Positions 2,246-27,726 of a stretch of 64,000 nt of DNA are shown piece after piece. The stretch's first letter is position 1; each line of letters starts with the position of its first letter. Source of the DNA: a bacterium. Its GTDB lineage: Bacteria > Sysuimicrobiota > Sysuimicrobiia > Sysuimicrobiales > Segetimicrobiaceae. Made by a program: the position numbers and the translations under genes. The stretch covers positions 186,001 through 250,000 of the forward strand of contig DATGHU010000044.1 of NCBI GenBank assembly GCA_035307765.1. The letters run 5' to 3'. The notes beneath the pieces are model-generated. The model saw nothing but the letters and a program-made list of their open reading frames with translations. It searched no databases and was not told where the DNA came from.

Positions 2246-3808
2246 CTAGCGGCCGCTCCGCGCCAGCACCTCCGCCCAGCCGCGCAGGAGCGATTGCCCC
2301 TTGACGATCTGCTCCGCGCTGAAGAACTTCTCGAGCCCTACCCGCTGGATCGGGTACACCGGGCGCTGGAAATCCTTGTCGTACCCAAATGGGACGGTGG
2401 CGTCGATCCCCATGCCGCCCTCGAAGCGGGTGTTCATCGCCGTCCACTGCCGGTCCCCCGCCGTGAGGCGCTCCTCGGGGATGAAGGTCTGCCCCGCGCC
2501 GCCGGGAACCGGATTGAGGATGTCCGTCCGCGGGTTCACGCGGGTGGTCAGACACCAGATGATCTCGTCCATGTTGTAGATATCGACGTCATCATCGACG
2601 ACGATCGCGAGGCGCATCCCCTGACTGCACGCCATGGCCGCGACGAGGAAGTTGCGGACCATGCCGTCATCGGTCTTGAGCCGCTTCTTGACCTGGATGA
2701 TGCAGCCGCCCCAATCGGTCATCGGGTAGGGGATGTTCACGTCCTGGACGATGCCGGGCTGGAGCCGTTCGCAGAGTTCGAAGATCGCCGACTCGCGCAC
2801 GGTGGTATCGATATTGTGACAGTCGAGCATGTGGACGCCGAGCAGGTAGAAGATCGGCTTGGTGGCGCGGCGGCGCATCGTAATGCCGGTGACGTGAAAC
2901 GTCGGCGCGCGGTACGCCTTGCCCATGTAGCCGGCCCATTCCGGATGGAACGGGAACCGTCCCTGCTTATCGGCCGCCTCGGCCTCCGCCGTTTCGTAGC
3001 GCTTGTCGCGCGGATGGAGGTGGCCTTCCAGCACCAGTTCGCAGTCGGCCACCGCCCAGGCGTCGACCGTCCGGGCCTTGACGATCCGGATGGGGAACCC
3101 CTGCACCGCACCGGCCGCGCCCAACTCGTCGCCGCCGCGGGGGAGGATCACGTAGTCGAAGCCGCCCCCGGCGATGAGGGTGGCCGCCGGTGGGAGGCCG
3201 AAGCACATCGTCAGCGGGATGGGCGTGTCGTCGTGATAGTGCTCGGTGATGACCTGCCACATATGCGAGCCGGGTGCCGACTGGAACGTGCAGATGTTTC
3301 CCCAGCGGGCGTTCATGCGGTTGTAGCCGATGTGGCTGCCCCCGTGGAAGTAGGGCCCGACGACGACGCTGTTGCCGCTGCCGATCGTTCGCTCCGATTC
3401 GAGCTCCGTGTGCCGGATCGCGACGACGTGGTTGTTGACCTCGAGGTGGTCGGTCAGGACGTCCTCCTGGCAGGGAGCCTGATCCTGCGGCACTTCCACG
3501 GGGGGCAGCGGATGGGTCAGCGCGTGGGCCAGCTTGCGCGTCCGTGCGACCGGCGTCTCCCAGCCAAACATTCGGTCGATGATGCCCATGTTGGCGAACA
3601 GATTGGTGACCGCCCGGGCGTGGGGGTAGCCTTTGACGTTCTTGAACAACAGCGGGTAGCTCCCGTCCAGCTGCTTCTGCACGCCGGTGACCTCGAGGTC
3701 CGGGTCCACCGGTACGTCCGTCTCCAAGAGCAGCCCTTCGTGCCTGAGCCACTCCAGCGTGCCGCGAAGCGATTGGATGCCGCGCTCGACCTTCACCGGG
3801 GCTGCCAT
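2246..3808 (-). CDS. UbiD family protein, divergent active site
   Basis: A 520-residue UbiD-fold protein. Family members are prenylated-FMN-dependent (de)carboxylases acting on aromatic or unsaturated acids. The start chosen is ATG 3808, with GGGAGGA eight bases upstream; an earlier in-frame codon at 3847 lacks such a site. The fold is recognisable from CELVLEGHLHP and FPFHPEWAGYM, which line up with the other two UbiD proteins in this window. Of the usual Arg-Glu-Glu active-site set, only the last Glu (E290) is kept: the Arg slot holds Gln (Q176) and the first Glu slot holds Phe (F285). It lies between a CoA transferase (44-base gap) and the aldolase (1-base gap). It may act on a different substrate class or by a modified mechanism. 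Confidence 0.88.
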   Translation of the reverse strand: MAAPVKVERGIQSLRGTLEWLRHEGLLLETDVPVDPDLEVTGVQKQLDGSYPLLFKNVKGYPHARAVTNLFANMGIIDRMFGWETPVARTRKLAHALTHPLPPVEVPQDQAPCQEDVLTDHLEVNNHVVAIRHTELESERTIGSGNSVVVGPYFHGGSHIGYNRMNARWGNICTFQSAPGSHMWQVITEHYHDDTPIPLTMCFGLPPAATLIAGGGFDYVILPRGGDELGAAGAVQGFPIRIVKARTVDAWAVADCELVLEGHLHPRDKRYETAEAEAADKQGRFPFHPEWAGYMGKAYRAPTFHVTGITMRRRATKPIFYLLGVHMLDCHNIDTTVRESAIFELCERLQPGIVQDVNIPYPMTDWGGCIIQVKKRLKTDDGMVRNFLVAAMACSQGMRLAIVVDDDVDIYNMDEIIWCLTTRVNPRTDILNPVPGGAGQTFIPEERLTAGDRQWTAMNTRFEGGMGIDATVPFGYDKDFQRPVYPIQRVGLEKFFSAEQIVKGQSLLRGWAEVLARSGR

Positions 3809-3852
3809 CGATGTCCTCCCGTGATCCGTTTTGTCATTTCGCCACACCCACG

Positions 3853-10390: not shown

Positions 10391-10570
10391 TCCTGACCCC
10401 TCCTCGCGCGGACCGAGTCGATCGATCCGGCCTTTATCTTACCACCCCGCTCCGCCGCGGTCATGCGGCCCACCGCTCCTGCCCGCGCCGACCGCCTCAG
10501 CGCGGCGTGAAAGGGGAATGGTAAGGAGAACGTGAACACATCGCCAGGGGCAGACCCGGAGGGGCGTTCG

Positions 10571-12049
10571 ATGAGCATGGCGGTGGAACGCGGCCGCAGG
10601 ACCGGGCCGTACACGGACCTGCGGGACTGGCTCCGCGCGGTCGAGGCGATGGGGGAGGTCCGGCGCGTCGAGGGCGCGAGCTGGGAAGAGGACATCGGGC
10701 GGATCACCGAGATGCTCCATCACACCGAGGAGTCGCCGGCCGTCCTCTTCGACGCCGTCCCCGGCTACCCGCGGGGCTTCCGGGTGCTGGTCAATTCCCT
10801 GGGGGCCCGCCGCCGCCTGGCCTTCACGCTGGGGATGGACCCGCAGCTCGGGACGTTGGGCCTCATCGACGCGTGGGAGGAGCGGTTGAACCGGATCGAC
10901 CCGGTGCCGGTGCGTGAGGTTGCCGACGGCCCGATCTTGGAGAACGTCCTCGAGGGCGACGCCATCGACCTCTGGAAGTTCCCGACCCCCAAGTGGCACG
11001 CGCTCGACGGCGGTCGGTATATCGGCACGGCCGTGGCCAACGTCACCCGCGACCCCGACTCGGACTGGATCAACTTCGGCACCTACCGGGTGATGATCCA
11101 CGATCGGAATCGCTGCGGCCTCTACATCTCCCCCGGGAAGCACGGGCGGCTGCACCGCGACAAATACTTCGCGCGCGGCGAGGCGATGCCCGTGATCGCG
11201 ATGGTGGGCATGGACCCCATCCTCTTCCTCGCCAGTTGTTTGGAGATCCCGCTGGGGGTGAGCGAGTACGAGTGGGCGGGCGCCGTCAAGGGCGGGCCGG
11301 TGGAGGTGATCCGCGGCCGGCACACGGGGCTCCCCCTGCCGGCGCACGCGGAGATCGTGATCGAGGGGTTCGTCCATCCCAACGCGCGCCTCACCGAAGG
11401 GCCGTTCGGGGAGTGGACCGGGTACTACGCCAGCGGCAGCCGGGAGGAGCCGGTGATCGACGTGAAGGCGATCTATCACCGCCACGACCCCATTCTGCTG
11501 GGGTGCCCGCCCGAAAAGCCGCCGTACGAGGCGCATCACTTCCGCAAGTACCTCCGTTCCGGTATGCTGCGGAAGGCGCTCAAGGATGCCGGCGTCCCGG
11601 GGATCATGGGCGTCTACTGCCATCCCGTCGGCGGATGCCGCCTGCTCTACATTGTCGCGCTCCGGCAGATGTATCCCGGGCACGCGAAGCAGGCGGGGCT
11701 GCTGGCATCACAGGTGCGCGCCGGAGCCTACCTCAACCGGATGGTGGTCGTCGTCGACGAGGACATCGATATCACCGACCTCAGCGATGTGATGTGGGCC
11801 GTGCTCACCCGGGCCGACCCGGAGCAGGACTTCGAGATTCTCCGCCGCTGCTGGAGCGGGCCGCTCGATCCTGCGATCCATCCCGACCGCAAAGGGTTCA
11901 ATTCGCGGGTGATCATCGACGCCACCCGGCCCTGGGAGTGGAAGGACCGGTTTCCGATCCCGATCGGGCCGGACCCCGACTACAAGCGGCAGACCCGCGA
12001 GACCTGGGGCTGGCTCCTCGGCGGCGACGGGAAGCCGCCCGGTCGGTGA
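10571..12049 (+). CDS. UbiD family decarboxylase (canonical)
   Basis: A 492-residue prenylated-FMN-dependent decarboxylase. The active-site set is complete: Arg173 in FGTYRVMIHDRN, and Glu276 and Glu281 in EGPFGEWTGYY, numbered much as in the fungal model enzyme. Further conserved blocks are YTDLRDWLRAVEAMGEV at the start, FPTPKWHALDGGRYIGT, PGHAKQA and VVVVDEDIDI. ATG 10571 is chosen for the GGAGGGG six bases upstream; a GTG at 10532 would add 13 residues. It is divergent from the bicupin gene. It is clearly paralogous to the UbiD at 18612. Substrate unknown; aromatic or unsaturated acids are usual. Confidence 0.92.
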   Translation: MSMAVERGRRTGPYTDLRDWLRAVEAMGEVRRVEGASWEEDIGRITEMLHHTEESPAVLFDAVPGYPRGFRVLVNSLGARRRLAFTLGMDPQLGTLGLIDAWEERLNRIDPVPVREVADGPILENVLEGDAIDLWKFPTPKWHALDGGRYIGTAVANVTRDPDSDWINFGTYRVMIHDRNRCGLYISPGKHGRLHRDKYFARGEAMPVIAMVGMDPILFLASCLEIPLGVSEYEWAGAVKGGPVEVIRGRHTGLPLPAHAEIVIEGFVHPNARLTEGPFGEWTGYYASGSREEPVIDVKAIYHRHDPILLGCPPEKPPYEAHHFRKYLRSGMLRKALKDAGVPGIMGVYCHPVGGCRLLYIVALRQMYPGHAKQAGLLASQVRAGAYLNRMVVVVDEDIDITDLSDVMWAVLTRADPEQDFEILRRCWSGPLDPAIHPDRKGFNSRVIIDATRPWEWKDRFPIPIGPDPDYKRQTRETWGWLLGGDGKPPGR

Positions 12050-18611: not shown

Positions 18612-20033
18612 ATGAGCGATCGCGACTTGCGGGAGTGGATGACCCAGGTGGAGGAGCTGGGAGAACTCAAGGCCGTCGAGGAGGCCCACTGGGACGTCGA
18701 GATCGGGGTGATCACCGAGATCGTAATGAACCGCCACGGCCCGGCGCTGTTGTTCGACAACATCCCGGGGTATCCGGCGGGTCACCGGATCCTCGCCAAC
18801 GCCCTCGGCGGGCCGAAGCGCCTGGCCCATACGTTGGGGCTGCCCCCCGATCGCGACCTGAAGGCGCTCCTGAAACTGTGGCAGGAGAAGAATCGAGCGT
18901 TGCGGCCGATTCCCCCCCGGGTCGTGAAAGACGGTCCGGTGCTGGAGAACGTCCACCGGGGAGGGGAGATCGATCTATTGACGTTTCCCGTTCCGAAGTG
19001 GCACGAGCACGACGGCGGCCGGTACATCGGCACCGGCAGTGTGGACATCACCCGCGACCCCGACGAGGGGTGGGTGAATTTGGGATGCTACCGGGTGATG
19101 GTGCACGACCGGAACCACGTCGGCTTCTACATTTCCCCCGGCAAGCAGGGACGGATTCAGCGGGACAAATGGTTCGCCCGGGGGGGGCCGATGCCGGTCG
19201 CAATGTCCTTCGGTCACGATCCGGCCATCTTCATGGCGGGATCGCTTGAGATCCCCTGGGGAATGTCCGAATACGATTGGGTGGGGGGGGTGCGGGGGTC
19301 CGCCGTTGACGTGATCGAGGGGCCGATCACCGGGCTCCCCATCCCCGCGGCGGCCGAGATCGTGATCGAGGGATTCGTGGACCCGACCCACAAGCTGCCG
19401 GAGGGGCCCTTCGGGGAGTGGACGGGGTACTACGCCAGCGCGCGGCGGGAAGAGCCGGTGGTCGAGGTCGTCGGGCTCTACCACCGTCACCGCCCGATCC
19501 TGCTGGGCTCCCCTCCGGTCAAGCCCCCCTCCGAGCTGGCCTACTACCGCGCCTTCCTCCGCGCCGCGGCGATCGACGAGCAGCTCAGGCTGGCCGGCAT
19601 CCCGGACGTCGCCGGGGTATGGTGTCACGAGGTGGGCGGGTCCCGATTGTTCACGGCGGTCGCGATCACGCAGCGCTACCCCGGACACGCGAAGCAGGCC
19701 GCGATCGTGGCCTCGCAGTGTCACGCCGGGGCGTATCTGGGCCGCTTCGCGGTGGTGGTCGACGAGGACATCGATGTGATGAACCTCGAGGAGGTGATGT
19801 GGGCGATCTGTACCCGCTGTGATCCGGAGAGGGACATCGACATCCTCCGGCGATGCTGGAGCGGCCCGCTGGACCCGATCATCCCGCCCGAGCGGAAGGG
19901 CCTGAACTCTCGGGCGATCATCGATGCGACCCGGCCGTTCGAGTGGCGCGATCAGTTCCCCCGCGTGGCCGAATCCAGCCCGGAGCGGCGGAACGCGGTC
20001 CTGGCGAAGTGGGGCCGCACCATCCTCTCGTAG
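18612..20033 (+). CDS. UbiD family decarboxylase (canonical)
   Basis: A 473-residue prenylated-FMN-dependent decarboxylase, paralogous to the one at 10571. The active-site set is intact: Arg161 in GCYRVMVHDRN, and Glu264 and Glu269 in EGPFGEWTGYY. Other shared blocks are DLREWMTQVEELGELK, FPVPKWHEHDGGRYIGT, RYPGHAKQA and VVVDEDIDVM. GAGGAGAG precedes ATG 18612. It follows the ACMSD-like amidohydrolase by 14 bases. Substrate unknown; the partner suggests a carboxylated aromatic or heterocycle, which is inference. Confidence 0.92.
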   Translation: MSDRDLREWMTQVEELGELKAVEEAHWDVEIGVITEIVMNRHGPALLFDNIPGYPAGHRILANALGGPKRLAHTLGLPPDRDLKALLKLWQEKNRALRPIPPRVVKDGPVLENVHRGGEIDLLTFPVPKWHEHDGGRYIGTGSVDITRDPDEGWVNLGCYRVMVHDRNHVGFYISPGKQGRIQRDKWFARGGPMPVAMSFGHDPAIFMAGSLEIPWGMSEYDWVGGVRGSAVDVIEGPITGLPIPAAAEIVIEGFVDPTHKLPEGPFGEWTGYYASARREEPVVEVVGLYHRHRPILLGSPPVKPPSELAYYRAFLRAAAIDEQLRLAGIPDVAGVWCHEVGGSRLFTAVAITQRYPGHAKQAAIVASQCHAGAYLGRFAVVVDEDIDVMNLEEVMWAICTRCDPERDIDILRRCWSGPLDPIIPPERKGLNSRAIIDATRPFEWRDQFPRVAESSPERRNAVLAKWGRTILS

Positions 20034-20047
20034 GATGGCGAGGGAGC

Positions 20048-20164
20048 GTGTCGATCGCGTACCGTGACCCGCGGGTGCACCTGACGCTGCTGGGGGAGGC
20101 CGGCACGCCGCACCGCGTCCGCGCGGAGGTGGACAAGACCTGGGCGACCGCCCGGCGCCGATGA
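20048..20164 (+). CDS. possible 38-residue open frame
   Basis: A short frame from GTG 20048 that ends in an ATGA overlap with the next gene. The product begins MSIAYRDPRVHLTLL and is otherwise unremarkable; I recognise no family. The overlap with the following start is the common coupling pattern in this genome, which is the only argument in its favour. It could equally be the tail of a lost gene or chance. Confidence 0.22.
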   Translation: MSIAYRDPRVHLTLLGEAGTPHRVRAEVDKTWATARRR

Positions 20165-20613
20165 AGACGCTCCCCAGCTTCTCCGACCGGCTCGCCGCCC
20201 TCCTCATGGCCGGAACCCCCGCGGTGCTGGTCACCGTCGGAGGGGACGGGTGGGGTCACGCGGCGATGACCTGGGCCGCGGCGGACGACCCGCAGCGCGT
20301 GCGCTTCGGGGTCGACCACGGGAGCGCGACCCTGGCCAATCTGGAGCGCGACGGTCGGGCCGCCCTGCAGATCATCGGCACGGACAACATCCTGGCCCTG
20401 ATCAAGGGGCGAGCCCGGGTGAGGCGAGCGCGGATCGCCGCCGCACCGTTTCCGATGGCGCTGTGGGAGATCGCGGTGACCGAGGTCAAGGACCAGTCGT
20501 GGGGGCCGGTCGTCGTCGCTCCGCTGGCCTACGAATGGATCGGCCCGGAAGCCGCGACGCTGCGTCGCATCGAGCAGGCGGTGCTCGCCGAGCTGCGTGA
20601 CTGGTCGGGGTGA
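20161..20613 (+). CDS. pyridoxamine 5'-phosphate oxidase-like flavin-binding protein
   Basis: A 150-residue split-barrel protein. Seen: PAVLVTVGGDGWGHAAMTWAAADD, then VRFGVDHGSATLANLERDGRAAL, which is the usual substrate-proximal strand pair and the STxxNLxRDGR flavin-binding pattern. The C-terminal half (VKDQSWGPVVVAPLAYEWIG) completes the barrel. It is distinct from the paralogue at 1033. It lies downstream of UbiD on the same strand and convergent with the ABC permease. A flavin- or F420-dependent reductase role is possible; the substrate is unknown. Confidence 0.78.
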   Translation: MKTLPSFSDRLAALLMAGTPAVLVTVGGDGWGHAAMTWAAADDPQRVRFGVDHGSATLANLERDGRAALQIIGTDNILALIKGRARVRRARIAAAPFPMALWEIAVTEVKDQSWGPVVVAPLAYEWIGPEAATLRRIEQAVLAELRDWSG

Positions 20614-24757: not shown

Positions 24758-25792
24758 TCACGTTCGCGGTTTTCCGGCGGCCTGCGGTCCGGCGTACTCG
24801 GGCGCGTGCTCCAAGCGGACGACGGCGTCGTACCCGAGCAGTTTGAAGAGGCGATTCTGCGCCGACAGAAACACGAGGGGGGCGGCCGGATCGGTGTTGT
24901 ACAGCTGGTGGACCGTGTTGTGGGGGATGTACACCATGTCCCCCGCGCCGAACTCCCAGCGGGTCGGCTCCTTTGCCACCCGGGCCATATAGCGCTCGCC
25001 GATCTCGGCCTCGACGTCCCACTGCAGGCTGTACCCCCGTCCCGAGAGGACGTACAGTGCCTCGTCGGCCATGTGCCAATGCTTCGCCGACCGGCTGCCC
25101 GCGGGGATCTCCTGCTGAAAGACGTCCGTGCTGAACGCCCGCACGTCGGTGCGTTGCGGGGAGGTGAGCACCCGCACCCGACCGTCGGGGGTGGTCTCCC
25201 ACCGGGTGTCGGATGGTTTGACGACCTTCTTGCGCTCTCCCACCCCCGCCGTCCACAGGCGGGACCAGTCCTCCGGGGGGCCGTACCGGTCGCCATCGGC
25301 GACCGGGCCGCCGCGGCCCTGCTGAATGAGGCCGAGGTACATCCAGGTGGCCTTGGCCTTCATGATCAGGCAGAGCGCGCGTTTCTGGCTGTCGGCGTTG
25401 TAGTGCCGGTGCACGGAGTCGTTGTGGACGATCACGAGGTCGTCCTTCTCCCAGTCGTACCGCTTCCCGTCGTGGATCTCGTAACCGCGCCCCTCCAAGA
25501 TGTAAAAGAGGGCTTCGTTCTGGTGCCCGTGCCCGCGGTTCGAGCCCCCCGGCGCCAACTCCACGAAGTGCATCTGCACCGTCTGCGTGAGGAACGGATC
25601 GTCGCCCGGGCCCAGGATCCACCAGGTGCGAGATTGATCGGAGTCCCCGGAGTGACCGACCCGGGCGTCATCCACCACGGTCCCCGCCCGGCGCACCCGG
25701 GGCGACGCCCGCTGGAGCCGTCGGAAATCCGAGAGGCCGTATTGTTCCGCGGTGATGCCTTTGAGGAAAACCCGCCCTTCGCGTTCGCTCAC
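24758..25792 (-). CDS. two-cupin protein (bicupin)
   Basis: A 344-residue protein with two cupin barrels. First: SNRGHGHQNEALFYILEGRGYE and VHNDSVHRHYN (about residues 80-140). Second: SAKHWHMADEALYVLSGRGY and YIPHNTVHQLYNTD (about 238-305). Each holds two or three His and one Glu, fitting a metal site. GTG 25792 is chosen for the GGAGG eight bases upstream, though the frame stays open to 25930. It differs in sequence from the bicupin at 9281. It sits upstream of an MFS gene and is divergent from ubiX. A dioxygenase or decarboxylase role is plausible; the substrate is unknown. Confidence 0.82.
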   Translation of the reverse strand: MSEREGRVFLKGITAEQYGLSDFRRLQRASPRVRRAGTVVDDARVGHSGDSDQSRTWWILGPGDDPFLTQTVQMHFVELAPGGSNRGHGHQNEALFYILEGRGYEIHDGKRYDWEKDDLVIVHNDSVHRHYNADSQKRALCLIMKAKATWMYLGLIQQGRGGPVADGDRYGPPEDWSRLWTAGVGERKKVVKPSDTRWETTPDGRVRVLTSPQRTDVRAFSTDVFQQEIPAGSRSAKHWHMADEALYVLSGRGYSLQWDVEAEIGERYMARVAKEPTRWEFGAGDMVYIPHNTVHQLYNTDPAAPLVFLSAQNRLFKLLGYDAVVRLEHAPEYAGPQAAGKPRT

Positions 25793-25921
25793 CCGCTTCA
25801 CCTCCCGGCGCCGCCGCGGCCGCGGCGCCCCGCAAAGGGGTTCCCTCCCTTCGAGTCGCTCCCCTGCTCGTTCCGCCCGCCAAAGGAATGAAATTTGGGC
25901 GCCCCGAAGTGTGCCTTCGCG

Positions 25922-26560
25922 ATGGCACACGCGCGCCGCTTGATCGTTGCCCTATCCGGATCGACCGGCCCCCACTACGGGGTCCGCCTGTTGGAAGTGC
26001 TTCGGGCGCACACCGACGTCGAAACCCACCTCATCCTGACGGCGGCCGCCCGGAAGACCATCGCCTACGAGATGGGGCGGGATCCCGCGACCGTGGCGGC
26101 GCTGGCGCACGTCGTTCACGACGAACGGAACATCGCCGGATCGATCGCCAGCGGGACCTTTGTCACCGATGGGATGGTCGTCGCGCCCTGCTCGATCAAG
26201 ACCTTGTCCGCGATCGCGAACAGCTACAACGACACCTTGACGGTGCGGGCCGCCGATGTCTGCCTCAAGGAGCGCCGGCGGCTGGTCCTCGTGGTGCGGG
26301 AGACGCCCCTGCACGCGGGACATCTCCGGCTGATGGTCGAGGCCACGGAGGCGGGGGCGGTGATTCTGCCGCCGGTGCCGGGCTTCTATCATCTGCCGAA
26401 GACGGTGGGGGATCTCGTCGACCACACGATCGTCAAAATCCTCGATCAGTTCGGCATCCACCTTGATCTGATCCGGCGCTGGACCGGGCTCGACCCCGAG
26501 GGGGCGGTGGTGAGCCTCGACCGGCCCCGCCGCAAGGGGTCCGCGAAGCCCGGCCGATGA
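25922..26560 (+). CDS. ubiX: UbiX-type flavin prenyltransferase
   Basis: A 212-residue enzyme of the UbiX/Pad1 family, which attaches a dimethylallyl group to FMN to make the prenylated FMN needed by UbiD. Seen: RRLIVALSGSTGPHYG at residues 5-20, VVAPCSIKTLSAIANSYND near 97-115, then TVRAADVCLKERRRLVLVVRETPL and VILPPVPGFYHLPKT, the full family core with its conserved Arg, Lys and Glu residues. ATG 25922 is taken as start; TTG 25895 has a better AAAGGA upstream and would add nine residues. Its stop overlaps the start of an isopentenyl-diphosphate isomerase gene (ATGA). It is the only ubiX in the window and can serve all three UbiD proteins. Confidence 0.93.
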   Translation: MAHARRLIVALSGSTGPHYGVRLLEVLRAHTDVETHLILTAAARKTIAYEMGRDPATVAALAHVVHDERNIAGSIASGTFVTDGMVVAPCSIKTLSAIANSYNDTLTVRAADVCLKERRRLVLVVRETPLHAGHLRLMVEATEAGAVILPPVPGFYHLPKTVGDLVDHTIVKILDQFGIHLDLIRRWTGLDPEGAVVSLDRPRRKGSAKPGR

Positions 26561-27726
26561 GCCGACGCCCCGCCCGGAGGACGCGGCGTCCCGTTCGGCC
26601 GCGCTCCTCCGCCGCCCCGCGCGGGCCGGTCGAGCGGCGGAAGGCCGAGCACCTGCGGTTGGCGACGTCGGGAAACGTCACCAGCCCCCGGGGCCCCGGA
26701 TGGGCCGACGTTCACCTGGTGCACCAAGCCCTTCCCGCCGCCGACCTCGACGCGATCGATCTGACGACCGAGTTCCTCGGGCATCGGCTGCGGGCGCCGC
26801 TCGCGATCGCGTCGATGACCGGGGGCCACCGCGGGGGCGGTGACATCAACGCCCGATTGGCGCGCGCCGCGGAGCGGTTCGGCGTGGCGATGGGATTGGG
26901 AAGCCAGCGCGCCGCCCTGCATAACCCCGCACTCGCCCGTACGTACGCCGTGGCGCGGGAGGCGGCCCCGCACGCGTTGCTCATCGCCAACGTTGGTGCC
27001 GCGCAACTGGTGACGCAGGAGGGCGGCCCGCCGCTGACCCACCGGCACTTGGCGGACGCGGTCGCCATGATCGGCGCGGACGCGCTGGCCATTCATCTCA
27101 ACTTTCTCGAAGAGACGATCCAACCGGAAGGGGACCGGCGAGTCGCGGGGCTGCGGGACGCGCTCGCCGACGCGGTGGGGTCGCTCGCGGTGCCCGCGAT
27201 CGCCAAGGAAACCGGCGCCGGCATCTCCCCGCACACCGCGGTGGAGTTGCGCGCCCTCGGGTTCCGGGCGCTCGATGTGGGGGGGATGGGCGGAACCAGT
27301 TTCGCGGCGATCGAGACGGCGCGGGCCGAAGCGCGGCGCGATCGCCGGCGCACCCTGCTCGGCAGGGTGTACGCCGAGTGGGGCATTCCGACGGCGGTGT
27401 CGGTCGTCGCCGCCGCCCCGGCCGGGCTTCCGCTCATCGCCACCGGCGGGGTGCGGACGGGCTTGGACGCCGCGAAGGCGATCGCCCTCGGCGCGACGCT
27501 GGTGGGGGTCGGCAGCCCCCTCCTCTCCGCGGCACTGGAGGGGGATGCGGCGATCGAGCTCTGGATCACGCAGTTCCTGGAAGAGCTTCGTGTCGCCGTG
27601 TTCCTCAGCGGCGGGACGCGCGCCGCCGAGCTCCGCTCGGCCCCCAGGGTCGTGCTGGGAGAGACACGGCGGTGGATCGAGGACATCGGCTGCGGGGACG
27701 CCCTCGCCCCGGCACCGGGAGGGTAG
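26557..27726 (+). CDS. fni: type 2 isopentenyl-diphosphate delta-isomerase family protein
   Basis: A 389-residue FMN- and NAD(P)H-dependent enzyme of the type 2 isomerase family, which interconverts isopentenyl and dimethylallyl diphosphate. Seen: ERRKAEHLRLA near residue 26, IASMTGGHRGG at 84-94, GLGSQRAAL at 113-121, HLNFLEETIQPEGD at 180-193, KETGAGIS, and LDVGGMGGTSFAAIE. The usual HLNxLQE motif reads HLNFLEE, so the catalytic Gln is Glu185. An Arg-rich N-terminal extension of about 25 residues precedes the domain. It overlaps ubiX by four bases, suggesting that it supplies the prenyl donor for prenylated FMN. The reaction should be tested because of the Gln-to-Glu change. Confidence 0.88.
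   Translation: MSRRPARRTRRPVRPRSSAAPRGPVERRKAEHLRLATSGNVTSPRGPGWADVHLVHQALPAADLDAIDLTTEFLGHRLRAPLAIASMTGGHRGGGDINARLARAAERFGVAMGLGSQRAALHNPALARTYAVAREAAPHALLIANVGAAQLVTQEGGPPLTHRHLADAVAMIGADALAIHLNFLEETIQPEGDRRVAGLRDALADAVGSLAVPAIAKETGAGISPHTAVELRALGFRALDVGGMGGTSFAAIETARAEARRDRRRTLLGRVYAEWGIPTAVSVVAAAPAGLPLIATGGVRTGLDAAKAIALGATLVGVGSPLLSAALEGDAAIELWITQFLEELRVAVFLSGGTRAAELRSAPRVVLGETRRWIEDIGCGDALAPAPGG

Follow-up and report, generated by a model that had tools for sequence, protein, structure and literature searches.

A Glu-type type 2 isopentenyl-diphosphate isomerase linked to ubiX and ubiD in several bacterial phyla: a putative component of prenylated FMN supply

The window, as we call the whole 64,000-nucleotide stretch of DNA analysed here, carries the flavin prenyltransferase gene ubiX translationally coupled to a gene of a type 2 isopentenyl-diphosphate isomerase (IDI2), in which a Gln of the family is replaced by Glu. 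Isomerases with this replacement (Glu-type) recur next to ubiX or ubiD in varied gene orders, and it is very probable that they are coupled to the metabolism of prenylated FMN (prFMN). The pair in the window is best read, with reasonable though not high confidence, as the donor-making and the donor-using part of a prFMN supply module, that is, a predicted IPP/DMAPP isomerase dedicated to UbiX. The pair and its surroundings are composed of the following features:

24758..25930, minus strand: bicupin gene, divergent from ubiX (PF07883, two matches)
25922..26560, plus strand: ubiX, flavin prenyltransferase; start at ATG 25922 or possibly at an upstream TTG at 25895
26557..26560, plus strand: ATGA, overlap of the ubiX stop and the IDI2 start (sequence)
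26557..27726, plus strand: Glu-type IDI2, type 2 isopentenyl-diphosphate isomerase (TIGR02151, AlphaFold model)
27109..27111, plus strand: GAA codon for Glu185, in the slot of the family's Gln160, S. shibatae numbering (sequence, alignment)

The four-base overlap described in the first-pass annotation is thus present, as ATGA at 26557-26560. UbiX of the window matches the family models TIGR00421 (230 bits, cut-off 109) and NF004685 (254 bits), and IDI2 matches TIGR02151 (360 bits, cut-off 281). Solved structures nearest to this UbiX are 6qlg (A. niger Pad1), 1sbz and 6m8t. It resembles UbiX/Pad1 proteins in family scores above cut-off and in the aligned Glu and Tyr motifs, and is unlike them in the translational coupling of its gene to that of an isomerase. 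The bicupin gene also keeps its place beside ubiX in four other loci (L011, L034, L035, L036), with copies 75-84% identical.

The AlphaFold model of the window IDI2 (pLDDT 95.7) has its best PDB match in 2zrw, the S. shibatae IDI2 with FMN and IPP (TM 0.94, rmsd 1.5), indicating the IDI2 fold. In the alignment of the two proteins, Glu185 stands opposite Gln160 (HLNFLEE vs HLNPAQE), in agreement with the earlier placing of a Glu in the catalytic Gln slot. Because the Gln160 equivalent is missing, membership in IDI2 is claimed here by fold and family model, and the activity is predicted.

Residues were compared between 28 Glu-type and 66 Gln-type sequences, leaving out five His-bearing non-Glu sequences; groups are defined by residue 185, so that the Glu/Gln difference exists by construction, while retention of the other residues does not. 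Among about 46 near-invariant IDI2 positions, full departure of the Glu-type is limited to Gln160 (Gln in 66/66 Gln-type sequences), with, in addition, a mild Ala/Gly exchange at position 124. In 28/28 Glu-type sequences, the equivalents of Arg7, Lys8, His11, Ser96, Arg98, His155, Asn157, Glu161 and Lys193 are kept; Arg7, Lys8, Arg98, His155 and Glu161, which are near the substrate in S. shibatae, are among them, and the active site is in this respect retained. At position 249 every Glu-type sequence has Phe, and the Gln-type has Trp, Met or Phe. Compared with known IDI2 proteins (S. shibatae 2zru/2zrw, T. thermophilus 1vcf), the Glu-type shares fold, length, near-invariant residues and FMN-barrel, and differs in Glu for Gln160, in having Phe at position 225, where Trp is usual, and in linkage to ubiX/ubiD. 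Some archaeal and Thermoleophilia IDI2 homologues (L058, L061, L064, L119, L120) have His at the Gln160 position.

In IDI2, N5 of the reduced FMN acts as the acid/base (review PMC3509576). Enzymes with Ala in place of Arg7, Lys8, Arg98, His155 or a neighbouring residue mostly retain 1-35% activity (PMC3509576); the Gln161 printed in that review is, from the sequence numbering, probably Gln160. The residue at Gln160 therefore need not be critical. As a guess, Glu185, placed near the substrate, may adjust the rate, the binding of metal or the specificity.

To characterize the recurrence of the pair, contigs were scanned with the Glu-type alignment, and a class sample of Thermoleophilia and a phylum sample of Chloroflexota were searched. 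This disclosed 28 distinct Glu-type IDI2 genes in genomes of the ANGP1 lineage, Chloroflexota and Thermoleophilia/Actinomycetota. Inspecting flanks of up to 7 kb where contigs allow (1.5 kb or less for some of the 68), ubiX or ubiD was found within 7 kb of 26/28 Glu-type IDI2 genes and of 0/68 IDI2 genes without Glu (Fisher p ~2e-21 under an independence of genes that does not hold). Every UbiX-linked isomerase found has the Glu. The recurrence expected by the first-pass annotation is therefore observed in several phyla, and the counts of 26/28 and 0/68 rule out chance neighbours.

At least five gene orders could be distinguished: ubiX-IDI2 in ANGP1, IDI2-PhdC-like-ubiX and IDI2-ubiX in Thermoleophilia, ubiD-IDI2 in L044, and ubiD followed by two CoA-transferase-like genes and IDI2 in seven Chloroflexota. 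In L047, IDI2 is flanked by two ubiD genes. Survival of the linkage through such rearrangement is the strongest evidence of functional coupling. In L041 (2337-5280), PEP-utilising, phenylphosphate-synthase-like ORFs were noticed by eye between UbiD and the Glu-type IDI2.

UbiX was found in 26/28 genomes with a Glu-type IDI2. The two unlinked Glu-type genes belong to G065, on a short contig of 6.7 kb, and to G430, both without UbiX over cut-off; Glu thus does not need UbiX. Conversely, an unlinked UbiX occurs in 12/26 of the searched genomes with Gln-type IDI2, so UbiX can do without a linked isomerase. These two sets of genomes rule out that Glu depends strictly on UbiX. The neighbours of the Glu-type gene of G065 on either side are ORFs resembling, by eye, 4,5-dihydroxyphthalate decarboxylase (L046:140-1126 and 2321-3367); the first had no match in an NCBIfam scan.

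In a tree built with the column of residue 185 left out, Glu-type sequences fall into one subclade, which also holds four Gln sequences. The Gln sequences within it are unlinked, as the model of coupling predicts. Parsimony needs three changes for Glu, which can be read as a single gain plus two losses; there is accordingly no support for Glu having arisen several times independently. Being essentially of single origin, Glu has a tie to UbiX/UbiD that rests on one origin, and the three independent pairs available for comparing Glu with linkage are too few for a formal test.

Twelve genomes of the window's family were compared. UbiX and Glu-type IDI2 are found together in seven and are both missing from five (G005, G008, G009, G010, G011), and the Glu-type gene always overlaps ubiX or follows shortly after it. 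UbiD, searched in nine of the 12 genomes, agrees with this pattern of co-inheritance. A Gln-type paralogue exists in five genomes, away from ubiX and not following UbiX; both types coexist in three. In L005-L009 this paralogue is fused to a C-terminal YjbQ/UPF0047 domain, as determined by a domain search for L006:1423-2958 only (TIGR00149 105 bits, PF01894) and by eye for the other four, which are similar. No IDI2 over cut-off was detected in G005, G009 and G011, and no type 1 isomerase (IDI1) in the family members searched, G005 included, whereas IspH is present in G000 (the window's genome) and in the members searched. IspH makes DMAPP without any isomerase, IPP being its major product. With IspH present, IDI1 absent and some members showing no IDI2 over cut-off, these bacteria seem able to make their bulk isoprenoids without an isomerase, and in G000 an isomerase is not strictly needed for DMAPP. 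Searches of G000 (3.8 Mb, 96% complete) for IDI2 and IDI1 yielded a single IDI2 over cut-off, the Glu-type. The second ordinary isomerase that might have served UbiX, named earlier as a point against the module, was thus not found in this genome, though IspH is present.

These distributions bear on the possibility that an ordinary isoprenoid IDI2 is hitch-hiking in a mobile island of aromatic catabolism, with a neutral change of Gln to Glu. The essentially single origin of Glu and the two unlinked Glu-type genes fit such an explanation, as does the activity of about 1-35% kept by Ala mutants nearby, probably also of this Gln (PMC3509576). Still, the linkage has held in several phyla and across five or more gene orders, within the family the Glu-type tracks UbiX and the Gln paralogue does not, and in the three members without IDI2 over cut-off the isomerase seems dispensable; we regard hitch-hiking as improbable. 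It is instead rather likely that Glu-type IDI2 is an FMN-dependent IPP/DMAPP isomerase, its activity being predicted, which forms a distinct subclade inherited with UbiX/UbiD.

A different question is whether the clade with the Gln-to-Glu change has been neofunctionalised for prenyl-flavin metabolism, for example as an isopentenyl-monophosphate isomerase making DMAP or as a prFMN-handling enzyme. Taken as a whole, this is unlikely, though it deserves to be weighed in both forms. In the first, the Glu-type would convert isopentenyl monophosphate to DMAP and pass a monophosphate donor straight to UbiX. DMAP-specific UbiX enzymes do exist: the position deciding on the space for the beta-phosphate is Phe181 in DMAP-specific PaUbiX and Gln203 in DMAPP-specific AnUbiX (PMC6541611), and in E. 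coli DMAP comes from NudJ or ThiM (PMC12359138). Moreover, the one residue that is switched has near-substrate residues around it, and it is fixed in the linked clade. On the other hand, equivalents of Arg7, Lys8, Arg98, His155 and Glu161 are all kept, and in an alignment the PaUbiX 181 position is occupied by His and not by Phe in every linked UbiX. The UbiX of O157, with His164 there, uses both DMAP and DMAPP and does better with DMAPP, although specificity is not decided by this position alone, as the same study cautions (PMC6541611). We consider monophosphate use by the Glu-type a slim prospect. The Glu switch described in the first-pass annotation is confirmed; the altered chemistry or monophosphate substrate suggested there may exist but is not needed, with near-substrate residues kept and a UbiX His as in a user of DMAPP.

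Operons of Thermoleophilia/Actinomycetota contain one more component. In five loci (L045, L048, L049, L163, L164), a gene for a protein of about 160 residues stands between IDI2 and ubiX and overlaps or directly adjoins each of them. PhdC-like homologues, located between IDI2 and ubiX or beside IDI2, were positioned as follows:

L045, 7068-7547: PhdC-like homologue
L049, 3699-4181: PhdC-like homologue
L163, 8122-8601: PhdC-like homologue
L164, 8457-8930: PhdC-like homologue
L077, 952-1425: PhdC-like homologue

A profile of six PhdC-like proteins matched PDB entries 9SRG (7e-10) and 9NK0 (6e-10), which places them with PhdC; 9SRG is PhdC itself, a proven prFMN maturase (PMC13040415). The Glu of PhdC that is Ala in the variant entry 9nk3 is conserved in the Thermoleophilia operon proteins. 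The operon phdA-phdB-phdC of Mycolicibacterium fortuitum (UbiD, UbiX and prFMN maturase; PMC13040415) likewise clusters UbiD, UbiX and PhdC-like genes for cofactor supply; the operons described here differ from it in the additional IDI2, a putative donor-making enzyme.

Such operons, common to UbiX, UbiD and the PhdC-like maturase, would also suit the second form of neofunctionalisation, in which the Glu-type protein acts on prFMN (binding, isomerising, repairing or maturing it) or on a UbiD substrate, and not on IPP. An FMN-binding barrel with N5 chemistry beside prenyl groups is compatible with this role. However, all IPP-site residues except Gln160 are retained, several genomes besides G000 share with it the Glu-type as sole IDI2 over cut-off, and the Glu-type is present in G065 and G430, which have no UbiX over cut-off. 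We consider an action on prFMN or a UbiD substrate improbable as well.

Three UbiD proteins had been named as fed by the pair, and three genes with PF01977 do lie within the window, one of them followed by a gene of a split-barrel protein:

2246..3847, minus strand: ubiD c, divergent UbiD-family protein (PF01977 98 bits)
10532..12049, plus strand: ubiD a, UbiD-family (de)carboxylase (PF01977 222 bits)
18612..20033, plus strand: ubiD b, UbiD-family (de)carboxylase (PF01977 217 bits; best NCBIfam model phenylphosphate carboxylase beta, under cut-off)
20161..20613, plus strand: FMN split-barrel (PNPOx_N) protein directly 3' of ubiD b (PF01243 31.6 bits)

A fourth UbiD gene of G000 is located on another contig (C21). 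The NCBIfam models closest to the UbiD proteins of the window are VdcC and phenylphosphate carboxylase beta, UbiD enzymes of aromatic-acid metabolism, with scores below the cut-offs of both. The protein at 20161-20613 is a predicted distant relative of the PhdC-like maturases in Thermoleophilia operons. Its identification as PhdC was considered and is not upheld: a search with this protein alone gave no match to PhdC with E of 10 or below, the search of G000 with the PhdC-like profile gave no match over threshold, this copy included, and the conserved PhdC Glu is absent from it in the alignment with the PhdC-like set. In G002, G003 and G007, split-barrel copies adjacent to ubiD are the family's best PhdC-like matches.

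Combining these observations, we propose that Glu-type IDI2 would convert IPP to DMAPP as a local supply, from which the co-translated UbiX would transfer the prenyl group to FMNH2, giving prFMN. The cofactor would then pass to UbiD (de)carboxylases of the aromatic-acid catabolic cluster, in some lineages via the PhdC-like maturase, and on induction of a UbiD pathway the coupled isomerase would raise prFMN supply. The reading of the pair as a cofactor module, offered from the window alone, hence gains its first half, an isomerase within the prFMN system, from recurrence, PhdC-like operons and the tracking of UbiX; its second half, donor supply with flow of DMAPP to UbiX, is predicted from sequence.

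We found no published coupling of an isomerase to ubiX in the open-access literature, an incomplete sample. Each of the parts is of a known kind, while their combination and the fixation of the residue switch seem to be new. How cells obtain the dimethylallyl donor of prFMN is not well established, and the routes known from E. coli, such as NudJ and ThiM, are side activities (PMC12359138). Glu-type IDI2 offers a natural single-residue variant for probing the mechanism of type 2 isomerases, and, if the proposed function is true, it could be used directly to engineer UbiD biocatalysts, which the supply of cofactor can limit. An isomerase coupled to UbiX, in some lineages together with a PhdC-like maturase, would then add a third genetic component to the UbiX/UbiD system. 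The results suggest that uncultured soil and groundwater bacteria of several groups have a private supply line for the prenyl group of prFMN.
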